Source of the DNA: Syntrophus aciditrophicus SB
Lineage (GTDB): Bacteria; Desulfobacterota; Syntrophia; Syntrophales; Syntrophaceae
Direction of reading: 5' to 3'
Assembly: GCF_000013405.1 (NCBI RefSeq)
Contig: NC_007759.1
Location: 1,923,001 to 1,987,000, forward strand
Length of the DNA: 64,000 bases
Under the pieces are notes generated by a model. The model ran no database searches. It worked only from the letters and a program-made list of their open reading frames with translations, and was not told the origin of the DNA. The stretch's first letter is position 1. Each line of letters starts with the position of its first letter. Below are positions 19,083 through 23,057 of this stretch, piece after piece. The translations under genes were made by a program, and so were the position numbers.

Positions 19083-20420
19083 ATGGATGTTTTAACGCTC
19101 AGTCGATTGCAGTTCGCCATGACGGCGGGTTTTCATTTCCTTTTTGTCCCCCTGACCCTGGGCCTCTCCATCCTGGTCGCCTTCATGGAGAGCCGGTATG
19201 TCTTCACCGGAAACCCCTTGTATCTGCGCATGACGCGCTTCTGGGGCAAACTCTTCCTGATTAATTTTGCCGTCGGTCTCGTCACCGGCCTGACCCTGGA
19301 ATTCCAGTTCGGCATGAACTGGGCATCCTATTCCCGTTTCGTGGGCGACATCTTCGGCACCCCCCTGGCCATCGAGGCAACTGCCGCCTTTTTTCTGGAA
19401 TCCACCTTTATCGGCTTGTGGATTTTCGGCTGGAAACGTCTTTCTCCCCGTCTGCATGCCTTTACGATCTGGGTGGTCGCCTTCGCCACCAACTTTTCCG
19501 CCCTCTGGATTCTTCTCGCCAATGGCTGGATGCAGCACCCCGTCGGGTTCGTCCTCCGCAACGCGCGGGCTGAAATGGTTGACTTCCCTGCCCTGCTTAC
19601 CAGCAGTTACGGCTGGCTCAAGTTTCTGCACACCATAACCGCCGGCTACGTAACCGCCGCCTTTTTCGTTCTTGGCATTTCCGCCTGGCAGATCCTGAAA
19701 AAGCGGGAGGTTCCCCTTTTCAAATCCTCTTTCCGGATCGCAGCCGTTTTCGGTCTGTTGAGTTCCATGGCAGTTGTCGGCATCGGCGATTTCCATGGAG
19801 CGGAAGTCGCCCGCGTTCAGCCGGGGAAACTGGCCGCTATGGAGTCGCTCTGGGAAACGGAAAGCTCCGTCCCCTTTTACCTTTTTGTACTGCCGGACGC
19901 AAAGAATGAACGCAACAGCATTGAGGCTGTCGGCATTCCCTACATGGTCAGCTTTCTCGCCTATCGGGACATTCATGCCGAACTCAAGGGTTTGAAGGAA
20001 TTTCCCAGAGAAGATCGGCCTCCGGTCATGGAAACCTTCCTCGGTTTCCGAATCATGGTCGCTCTAGGAGGACTCTTCATGCTTCTTGCCGCCATTGCCC
20101 TTTATCTGAGTGTCCGGAACCGCCTTGAATCTTTACCCCGTTTCCTCTGGCTGATGGCGCTCTCACTTCCCCTTCCCTATCTGGCCGGCCAGGCGGGATG
20201 GGTCGTGGCTGAGGTGGGCCGCCAGCCGTGGATCGTTTACGGCCTGCTGAGAACGAAGGATGCCGTCTCACCCAATATAGCAGGCAGTCAGGTGTTGTTT
20301 TCCCTCATTGGTCTGGGCCTGCTTTATACCTTTCTCGGGATTGTCGGGCTGTGTCTGATGATCTACCACATCAGGAAAGGCCCGGAACCTGAAGCGACCG
20401 AGCCAGGCGCCTCTTCTTAA
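19083..20420 (+). CDS. cydA: Cytochrome bd quinol oxidase subunit I
   Basis: The heme-bearing membrane subunit of the bd-type quinol oxidase, which reduces oxygen to water with high affinity. The 445 residues contain the N-terminal axial histidine (H18 in MTAGFHFLFVPLTLG), the quinol-site GRQPW segment in VVAEVGRQPWIVYGLLRT, a short Q-loop after FHGAEVARVQPGKLAAME, and at least eight membrane helices. The start has GAGGAGAAG upstream. cydB follows 25 bases later. In an otherwise anaerobic gene set it most likely removes trace oxygen. Confidence 0.97.
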   Translation: MDVLTLSRLQFAMTAGFHFLFVPLTLGLSILVAFMESRYVFTGNPLYLRMTRFWGKLFLINFAVGLVTGLTLEFQFGMNWASYSRFVGDIFGTPLAIEATAAFFLESTFIGLWIFGWKRLSPRLHAFTIWVVAFATNFSALWILLANGWMQHPVGFVLRNARAEMVDFPALLTSSYGWLKFLHTITAGYVTAAFFVLGISAWQILKKREVPLFKSSFRIAAVFGLLSSMAVVGIGDFHGAEVARVQPGKLAAMESLWETESSVPFYLFVLPDAKNERNSIEAVGIPYMVSFLAYRDIHAELKGLKEFPREDRPPVMETFLGFRIMVALGGLFMLLAAIALYLSVRNRLESLPRFLWLMALSLPLPYLAGQAGWVVAEVGRQPWIVYGLLRTKDAVSPNIAGSQVLFSLIGLGLLYTFLGIVGLCLMIYHIRKGPEPEATEPGASS

Positions 20421-20445
20421 ACAGCAGAACGGGAGGTACGACATC

Positions 20446-21471
20446 ATGGATTATCAGCTGATCTGGTTTGTTCTCTGGGGACTTCTCTGGGCCGCATATT
20501 TTGCCACCGGCGGTTTCGATCTGGGGGCGGGAATGCTTCTTCCCGGGCTGGGAAAAACGGAACACGAAAAAGAGGCACTTCTGGAAAGTTTCGGTCCGCT
20601 GTGGAACGGCAACGAAGTCTGGCTGGTCACGGCGGGCGGCGCAACCTTCGCCGCCTTCCCCACCGCTTACGCCGTACTCTTCAGTTCCTTTTACATTCCC
20701 CTTCTGTTGATTCTCTTCGCCCTGATTGTCCGGGGCGTCGCTCTGGAATTTCGGGAAAAACTCGCGTCGCAGTCCTGGCGAAAGGCTTGCGATACCGCCA
20801 TCGTAACGGGAAGTGTCGTTCCGGCCTTCCTCTTCGGCGTTTTTTTCGGCAATGTCTTTCAGGGATTGCCCCTGGATGACCGGGGGTACAGCGGGACCTT
20901 TCTTCAGCTTCTCAATCCTTACACCCTCCTGGCAGGGATTCTTTTCTGTGTCCTTTTCCTCTCCCACGGCGCCCTCTGGATCGCCTACCGAACGGAGGGT
21001 GATCTGTCCATGCGGGCGGCAACCTTCGCTCGAAACTACTGGCCCGCTGTTGCCCTGGCCGTGATCCTTTTCTTCATTTCCTCTATCTTCAAGACGCAGC
21101 TTTTCGCAAATTATCTCCAGAACGCCCTTCTGTTCCTCTTTCCTGTCCTGTCGCTGCTTTCCCTTGCCGCTCTGAGGTTTTACCTGAAGAAGTCGGAATT
21201 TCTCTCAGCTTTTCTATTTTCCGGATTGAATATCATCCTGGTCATGGCAACCGCCCTGGCCGGCCTGTATCCGAACCTGCTTCCCTCGCTCTCCAATCCC
21301 TCCTTCAGCATCACGATTTTCAATGCCTCCTCAGGCCTTTACACTCTGAAGATCATGACCGTGGCCGCCGCTGTCTTTGTCCCCATCATTCTCGTCTATC
21401 AGTTATGGGTTTACCGGATATTCCGGCATAAAATCCCCGCCGCGAGGACGGGAGAAGATCTGTACCTTTAA
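20446..21471 (+). CDS. cydB: Cytochrome bd quinol oxidase subunit II
   Basis: The membrane partner of CydA. It begins MDYQLIWFVLWGLLWAAYFATGGFDLGAGMLLPGLG, of which the GFDLG part is diagnostic. FGPLWNGNEVWLVTAGGATFAAFP is the conserved second-helix region. The 341 residues contain about eight membrane helices. GGGAGGT precedes the ATG. No cydX-like short frame or cydCD exporter follows; mscL is next, 89 bases downstream. Confidence 0.97.
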   Translation: MDYQLIWFVLWGLLWAAYFATGGFDLGAGMLLPGLGKTEHEKEALLESFGPLWNGNEVWLVTAGGATFAAFPTAYAVLFSSFYIPLLLILFALIVRGVALEFREKLASQSWRKACDTAIVTGSVVPAFLFGVFFGNVFQGLPLDDRGYSGTFLQLLNPYTLLAGILFCVLFLSHGALWIAYRTEGDLSMRAATFARNYWPAVALAVILFFISSIFKTQLFANYLQNALLFLFPVLSLLSLAALRFYLKKSEFLSAFLFSGLNIILVMATALAGLYPNLLPSLSNPSFSITIFNASSGLYTLKIMTVAAAVFVPIILVYQLWVYRIFRHKIPAARTGEDLYL

Positions 21472-21560: not shown

Positions 21561-22019
21561 ATGTTCAAGGAATTCAAGGAGTTTGCATTAAAAGGAAACG
21601 TTGTGGATATGGCCGTGGGTATCATTCTGGGTGTTGCCTTCGGCGCCATCGTGAAATCACTTGTCGATGATCTTCTCATGCCCGGCATCGGTATACTCCT
21701 GGGCTCTGCCGATTTTTCCAATCTGTTTCTCGTCATAAAAGAAGGCGCAACCCCCGGACCTTTCACCACCCTGGCTGACGCGCAGAAAGCCGGCGCAGTC
21801 ACGATTAATTATGGACTTTTTATCAATACCATCGTTAATTTTATTATTGTAGCTTTCGCCTTGTTTCTGGTTATCCGCAACATCAACCAACTCCGGAGAA
21901 TGACGGAAAAGCCCCCTGTCGAAGAGGCGCCCACAACCAAAGACTGTCCCTACTGCCTCTCCGCCATCCCCCTCAAAGCCACGCGCTGCCCGAACTGCAC
22001 ATCTGAACTGAAGGGTTAA
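21561..22019 (+). CDS. mscL: Large-conductance mechanosensitive channel MscL with C-terminal zinc ribbon
   Basis: A tension-gated inner-membrane pore that releases solutes on hypo-osmotic shock. [20 protein letters not shown] and [17 protein letters not shown] form the N-terminal helix and pore helix TM1; [17 protein letters not shown] is TM2. After the usual cytoplasmic segment the protein carries [18 protein letters not shown], a four-cysteine zinc-ribbon-like tail that classical MscL lacks. It has 152 residues, and GGAGG lies ten bases before the ATG. The tail may sense redox or metal state, or only stabilise the bundle; the sequence cannot decide. Confidence 0.95.
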
Positions 22020-22487
22020 CTCCACACGTTGTGGTGCGTATGTCCGTCCACCAAAGGCGGCATACGCATCACCGAGAAAAACATTCAGAACACGCAACGT
22101 TAATAGTTGCTGTTATCCAACACTATGTCTACATAGCATCAATTACCCGATTCCTTCCTGACACTTCAACCTGAAATAGAACTGCACCCGCAGAGTTGAG
22201 AATTCCGTCGACCGGTCTTTGTTCCGTTGCTGCGTTCACACCGATGATGATTTTTATGGAAAAAACCCATTTTTTCAGAGCCACCGCAAGGATACGCCTC
22301 GACGTGTTGACTTTCTTTTCTCGAAGCCATACACTCAAATCAAATGGGTCTGGATATGATGCTGACTTACTGCCTTTTTCTTATCGTGGTGATGAGATCT
22401 TGAACGATTGTCTCAGCAGTTCAAGCTATTCAGTATTTGTCTTTCAGTAAAGAAAATCAAATAAGGTTTAAAAAAGGAGGTGTCGGT
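22020..22487. other. Gene-free spacer before the selenoprotein gene
   Basis: No frame here is convincing. Just after mscL an inverted repeat (about GTGCGTATG at 22034-22042 with CATACGCAT near 22061-22069) could fold but has no U tract. At 22399-22405 and 22419-22425 CTTGAAC and GTTCAAG form a spaced inverted repeat, 63 bases ahead of the selenoprotein start, which could be an operator. A short minus-strand frame at 22129-22338 resembles nothing I recognise. Confidence 0.4.
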
Positions 22488-23057
22488 ATGTCAATCAACT
22501 GGATTAGTTCATTTGACGAGGGGGTACAAAAGGCGAATGAGGAGGACAAACTTATTCTTCTCGACTTCTTCAATCCCAATTGAATAGGCTGTAAAACAAT
22601 GGACGCGGTCGCGTACCCGGATGCAGCCGTCACTGACTTCATAACCAGGAATTTCATTCCGATCAGAATTCAGGCAAGTGATGCCGAACTGGGCCCCAGA
22701 TTCCGCATCAAATGGACCCCTTCCCTGCTGATTCTCGATAAACAAGGTCTGGAGCACAACAGATCCCTGGGATTCTTTTACCCCCAGGAATTGATCCCCT
22801 CGTTACTTCTGGGGATAGGGAAAGTTTTCTTCGGTCAGCCGGACAGGCCGAAAGCGATTTCATATTTTAAACAAATCACCATGGCCTATCCCGAATCTTT
22901 TCAGGCTCCGGAAGCCGTGTACCTCAAAGGCGTTTCTCAATATATTGAGGATCACGATGTGGCGAATCTGTTCGATATTTATGAATGTTTAAAATCCCGC
23001 TATCCTGACAGTGAATGGCTTATGAGGGCGGATCCTTATCGACTTTTAAAAAAATGA
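22488..23057 (+). CDS. Thioredoxin-like selenoprotein (UGA-encoded Sec, U-I-G-C site)
   Basis: A 189-residue thioredoxin-fold protein whose frame contains an in-frame TGA at 22581-22583 (residue 32). The context is LLDFFNPN-U-IGCKTMD: selenocysteine in place of the first cysteine of a C-x-x-C redox site, with the resolving Cys at 35. AAAAAGGAGG lies seven bases before the ATG, an ideal ribosome site for the upstream start. KWTPSLLILD carries the cis-proline loop. The last 90 residues look helical and TPR-like. A SECIS-type hairpin follows the TGA. Conventional gene calling would give a truncated protein starting at 22599. Its partner is unknown; a peroxide or disulfide reductase role is plausible. 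Confidence 0.85.
22584..22628 (+). promoter_or_regulatory. Bacterial SECIS element for Sec insertion
   Basis: Directly after the TGA, a lower stem pairs GGCTGT (22587-22592) with GCAGCC (22623-22628). The apical hairpin GGACGCGGTCGCGTACC (22601-22617) exposes a GGUC loop. The E. coli fdhF SECIS shows the same GGUC loop and closing GG/CC pairs. The loop G lies 24 bases after the TGA, inside the range used by SelB. Confidence 0.8.

Follow-up and report, generated by a model that had tools for sequence, protein, structure and literature searches.

In a 2006 survey, 19 selenoproteins were listed for Syntrophus aciditrophicus, including one named thiol:disulfide interchange protein, a class whose three sequences at that time came from S. 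aciditrophicus and from two species of Geobacter (Zhang et al., 2006; PMC1794560). This selenoprotein was later linked to the Pfam family PF13098 and to a UxxC motif (PMC9312934). Another described system that resembles the locus studied here is CnoX, a thioredoxin fused to a TPR domain, of which the Caulobacter protein retains the CXXC motif (PMC8129009).

The gene described here lies in a 64-kb window (the whole stretch of DNA analysed, C1:1923001-1987000 of the S. aciditrophicus genome) and is predicted to encode a selenoprotein that shares both PF13098 and UxxC with the thiol:disulfide interchange selenoprotein of 2006 (Table 1). There are 11 PF13098-like places in this genome, and because the window gene is the only one of them with an in-frame TGA, it is very probably the S. 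aciditrophicus entry of the 2006 list. Apparently new are the orthologous family and its spread, the TPR tail, the two registers of the SECIS hairpin and the nested reversions from Sec to Cys; the function of the family, too, appears to be previously undescribed. In the literature searched, which took in few subscription papers, we found neither a selenoprotein that combines thioredoxin with TPR nor any mention of a TPR tail for the 2006 class. Against the three sequences of that class, the present analysis yields 139 loci with TGA and, apparently, two or more nested changes from Sec to Cys. Selenoproteins are routinely mis-annotated, and relatives of this gene may well be annotated headless, since no NCBIfam model (release of June 2026) reached its cut-off, the nearest, DsbD and TsoB, falling far under theirs.

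Table 1. Features of the selenoprotein gene, in window coordinates
Feature	Position	Strand	Remarks
Full predicted selenoprotein gene, 189 aa, Sec at codon 32	22488..23057	+	terminal stop TGA 23055-23057
Shine-Dalgarno sequence (AGGAGGTG)	22475..22482	+	read directly
In-frame TGA, putative Sec32, opening the U-I-G-C redox motif	22581..22583	+	aligned codon TGA in 139/150 loci
Cys35, closing residue of U-I-G-C (32-35)	22590-22592	+	
Thioredoxin domain, residues about 1-102	22488..22793	+	DsbD-gamma / DsbH / Thioredoxin_2 like
cis-Pro motif WTP	residues 76-78		within thioredoxin domain
Predicted SECIS apical hairpin GGACGC-GGUC-GCGU(A)CC, register B	22601..22617	+	synonymous-shuffle tests and family covariation
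GGUC loop of hairpin	22607-22610	+	
C-terminal TPR-like helical domain, residues about 99-187	22782..23054	+	YbgF/CpoB and BamD like

Reading of the in-frame TGA

The ATG of the gene is preceded by a strong Shine-Dalgarno sequence (AAAAAAGGAGGTGTCGGT), in agreement with the original prediction, and a similar site lies ahead of the start in 141 of the 146 homologues with an assignable start. The claimed readthrough frame is also confirmed, with a single internal TGA at codon 32 and a thioredoxin fold continuing beyond it. Without recoding, a mechanical listing of open reading frames returns, as had been anticipated, a headless ORF of 152 aa (22599-23057), which drops 37 N-terminal residues including Sec32 and Cys35.

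The original prediction had proposed looking for the sel genes and for the residue that homologues carry at position 32. Among 150 homologous loci (a number that includes duplicates between two collections; 107 are non-redundant at 80% identity, 97 of these with TGA), 139 have TGA at the aligned codon, 10 have TGC (Cys) and one has GTG, so that position 32 is Sec or Cys with one exception. Standard gene calling, which returns the headless ORF, would agree with a pseudogene or a sequencing error, in which the TGA is a true stop or a mistake and the product either starts at 22599 or does not exist. We regard this as extremely improbable, and by the family pattern already refuted: 139 loci in many genera share the TGA with frames intact on both sides, conservation is no lower in the N-terminal part than elsewhere (W5 and F27 do not vary among 70 sequences), and the hairpin described below covaries.

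All four components of the decoding machinery are present in the genome (3,179,300 bases in a single contig), with matches that exceed curated cut-offs: tRNA-Sec (selC, 77.4 bits), selB (373.6 bits), selA (615 bits) and selD (379.6 bits). In a sample of 22 genomes with the TGA form of the family, tRNA-Sec was found in 21, and the assembly of the sole genome without a match is broken into about 170 pieces; among 11 sampled genomes with non-TGA homologues, seven have tRNA-Sec and four have none. Two genomes (G029 and G101, the homes of L034 and L043) each contain two tRNA-Sec matches above cut-off. The selD gene (L018, C1:1086624-1087553, minus strand) also has one in-frame TGA, and the selenophosphate synthetase SelD is probably itself a selenoprotein, a common situation.

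The SECIS hairpin and synonymous codon choice

The bacterial SECIS model specifies an apical loop of 3-9 nt with a G in the first two positions, a stem of 4-16 bp and a spacing of 16-37 nt (PMC13188914). The upper hairpin in the window satisfies this model, having a 4-nt GGUC loop, 6 bp with one bulge, a 17-nt spacer from the UGA and 23 nt from the UGA to the loop, which begins where the original prediction had placed it, 24 bases past the TGA. The claimed 6-bp lower stem (GGCTGT/GCAGCC) did not hold up: all six pairs form only in the window sequence, against a mean of 2.7 over 97 TGA sequences, and we rejected it as unconserved, its match in the window sequence being probably due to chance. 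An Rfam scan of the 64-kb window returned only two tRNAs.

Judged singly, the window hairpin is unremarkable (z -1.3), and 37% of synonymous recodings of the gene itself pair equally well. The original claim that the signals jointly indicate Sec is supported by the family and not by this hairpin on its own, and it is only the comparison across homologues that renders the hairpin evidence decisive. Protein conservation alone could preserve such a hairpin, and we therefore shuffled codons synonymously, drawing them from the remainder of the same genes. Pairing in 120 distinct TGA sequences was 6.12 of 7, compared with 4.35 +/- 0.08 after shuffling, and none of 2000 shuffles reached the observed value; the Cys homologues gave 2.8 vs 2.6 in the same test. 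When the better of two registers was scored, 97 non-redundant TGA sequences paired at 5.86 of 6 vs 4.43 +/- 0.06 in synonymous shuffles, and nine Cys sequences, which lack the hairpin, showed no excess, at 3.0 both observed and shuffled. By these measures, the apical hairpin is kept in TGA homologues far beyond what the protein requires.

The two registers differ in their stems. The majority form in the family is GGAUGC-(loop with GU)-GUAUCC, while the window sequence and its near relatives use the shifted GGACGC-GGUC-GCGU-A-CC, with the distance from loop to UGA unchanged. Codon choice at Tyr43 tracks residue 39 in the way that pairing of the hairpin demands: where residue 39 is Asp (GAT), the Tyr43 codon is TAT in 56 of 56 sequences, and where it is Gly (GGT-type), 16 of 18 sequences use TAC and two use TAT, which makes G-U pairs (Fisher p = 2e-14, a value uncorrected for kinship among the sequences). 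The family is therefore a clear case of an RNA signal constraining synonymous codons.

Taken together, the alignment of TGA with Cys codons, the sel genes, the conservation of the hairpin and the covariation between residue 39 and the Tyr43 codon make it almost certain that the in-frame stop codon is read as selenocysteine. The route that the comparison strongly supports is decoding of the UGA by SelB and tRNA-Sec, with the hairpin beyond its spacer as the directing signal. For the joint statement that codon 32 specifies Sec and that this residue belongs to a UxxC redox site, we estimate a probability of roughly 0.9.

Domain architecture and putative function

The AlphaFold2 model of the protein is confident (pLDDT 96, pTM 0.90) and consists of two parts. 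The first matches Thioredoxin_2 (PF13098; E=2.7e-9, 37.7 bits vs a gathering cut-off of 27), Thioredox_DsbH (PF03190; E=2.1e-8) and Thioredoxin_7 (PF13899; E=3.9e-7), and its best structural matches in VIA are DsbD-gamma (1vrs; residues 1-108, Z 13.2, rmsd 1.9 over 105 residues) and DsbH (2ju5; Z 12.6). DsbD-gamma and DsbH are periplasmic or membrane-anchored CxxC proteins. The window protein, unlike them, has Sec, a TPR tail and no signal peptide visible in its N-terminal MSINWISSFDEGVQKANEEDK, and this thioredoxin-TPR selenoprotein is cytosolic. Two other selenoprotein groups have a related thioredoxin-like domain, TsoB (NF045694; E 1.4e-7, 30 bits vs a cut-off of 805) and Trx7/PDZ (NF041199; E 2e-4, 20.4 vs a cut-off of 300); given these scores and their other domains, both were set aside as separate families.

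The C-terminal extension is helical, as was originally claimed, although it is less an extension than a TPR-like domain common to nearly the whole family, and the protein is therefore a thioredoxin-TPR fusion. Five helices are modelled (residues 99-115, 120-133, 140-155, 159-171 and 176-187). Residues 98-181 resemble BamD (Z 12.7 over 82 residues, rmsd 2.0, VIA), and YbgF also matches, although such Z values in helical repeats may reflect only a common arrangement; sequence profiles tie the tail to CpoB/YbgF (E 2.2e-10), and the BamD profile matches too.

The order of a thioredoxin domain followed by a TPR domain is shared with the CnoX (YbbN) chaperedoxins, and E. coli YbbN (3qou) and the Salmonella protein 3qdn are among the best Foldseek matches. 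By analogy, the TPR tail might act as a holdase, with the Sec site guarding client cysteines through a mixed selenenyl-sulfide before the clients are passed to a chaperonin. We consider this quite unlikely. The thioredoxin domain belongs to another subgroup, more similar to DsbD-gamma and DsbH than to CnoX; the tail is shorter, about 90 residues in five helices as compared with two five-helix subdomains; and the window protein has Sec where CnoX has Ser or Cys. The fold match to 3qou has a TM of 0.42 and an rmsd of 11.9, and no CnoX profile was among the Pfam and NCBIfam matches at E up to 1. Membership of the CnoX family is not supported; 3qou was not among the best 50 VIA-align matches either, although this excludes nothing. 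A selenocysteine chaperedoxin of separate origin from CnoX, guarding or reducing specific clients in anaerobes, with Sec the usual state and Cys derived at least twice, seems similarly doubtful.

A thioredoxin-like disulfide reductase with a general role in redox metabolism, in which the TPR tail is merely structural, would account for the UxxC motif with its cis-Pro and for the thioredoxin reductase (TrxR)-like gene that adjoins some relatives. However, the tail is strongly conserved, with A143, L161, P173 and W177 each kept in more than 90% of 70 sequences, which suggests a specific job, and we regard a purely general reductase as possible but rather unlikely.

We infer that the most plausible mechanism is that of a Sec/Cys thiol-disulfide oxidoreductase with a client-selecting TPR-like tail. 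Judging from the fold, the motif and the conserved cis-Pro, Sec32 would attack and Cys35 would resolve at the UxxC site on the DsbD-gamma-like fold. The tail may bind partner proteins, so that the site would reduce or protect thiols in particular client proteins, probably when anaerobes are exposed to an oxidative challenge, and the selenoprotein would then be recharged, probably by a thioredoxin reductase. Selection of clients by the tail, taken alone, has in our view about an even chance of being correct. The pairing of thioredoxin with TPR offers a testable idea for how Sec chemistry could be aimed at particular clients.

Family spread, Sec/Cys exchange and gene neighbourhood

Among 395 genomes searched within the phylum, about 75 full-length relatives carry the in-frame TGA, and some ten have no in-frame stop. 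GTDB genomes yielded no loci when the single protein was the query and 80 named loci when the alignment was used. Hosts include Geobacter, Trichlorobacter, Desulforhabdus, Desulfobacterales, Syntrophaceae and Candidatus Brocadia, as well as bins labelled Nitrospiraceae, Actinomycetes and Armatimonadetes, although metagenome bins may be mislabelled. This is a widespread orthologous family of anaerobic bacteria, mostly Desulfobacterota but also Brocadia, Nitrospirae and others, the motif being UIGC in 125 loci. One genome has two copies about 7 kb apart (L032 and L050 on G312:C10). A shortened form with about 122-126 codons after Sec and the motif UGAC occurs at two loci (L079 and L080). In one branch (L070, L066, L069, L071, L072 and L073), the second Cys is lost (CxxS), and in one case both positions are (VTDE), while the TPR-like tail is kept, and this branch may have a role other than that of a reductase.

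On a quick unrooted tree built from 106 sequences, four changes account for the Sec/Cys label, compared with 9.7 in shuffles. One Cys sequence (L065) is nested in a Sec clade (the inner branch has 95% SH-aLRT support, the clade 100%), and a pair from Geomonas/Geobacter (L169 and L178), whose genomes retain tRNA-Sec, is placed among Sec-bearing Geobacter relatives. These nested Cys forms are apparently reversions from Sec to Cys, at least two in number. For the thiol:disulfide interchange class, the 2006 survey recorded one Cys-to-Sec event and none from Sec to Cys (PMC1794560, Table 1). Sec-to-Cys reversion seems to have occurred here in a thiol-redox family, whereas the changes seen in that survey ran mainly the other way.

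The window gene stands alone, between mscL and a methylmalonyl-CoA epimerase gene on the opposite strand, and no operon partner recurs widely among the neighbours of the 107 non-redundant loci in a Pfam scan. The commonest downstream neighbours are PLD-like proteins (8 of the 130 ORFs scanned). Pyridine nucleotide oxidoreductases account for 3/130 downstream and 3/112 upstream ORFs, and a TrxR-like flavoprotein with CVDC lies directly downstream in 7 of the 80 GTDB loci. The scattered recurrent neighbours (PLD-like in the Geobacter clade, pirin, desulfoferrodoxin, TrxR-like flavoprotein, isochorismatase-like and Macro domain) are suggestive of an oxidative-stress theme. Upstream of the gene, the window also contains cydA and cydB (cytochrome bd oxidase, 19083-21471), which stand out in an otherwise anaerobic-looking genome. 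The MscL-like channel (21561-22019) has a C-terminal extension with two CxxC pairs (CPYC...CPNC) that resembles a small zinc ribbon.
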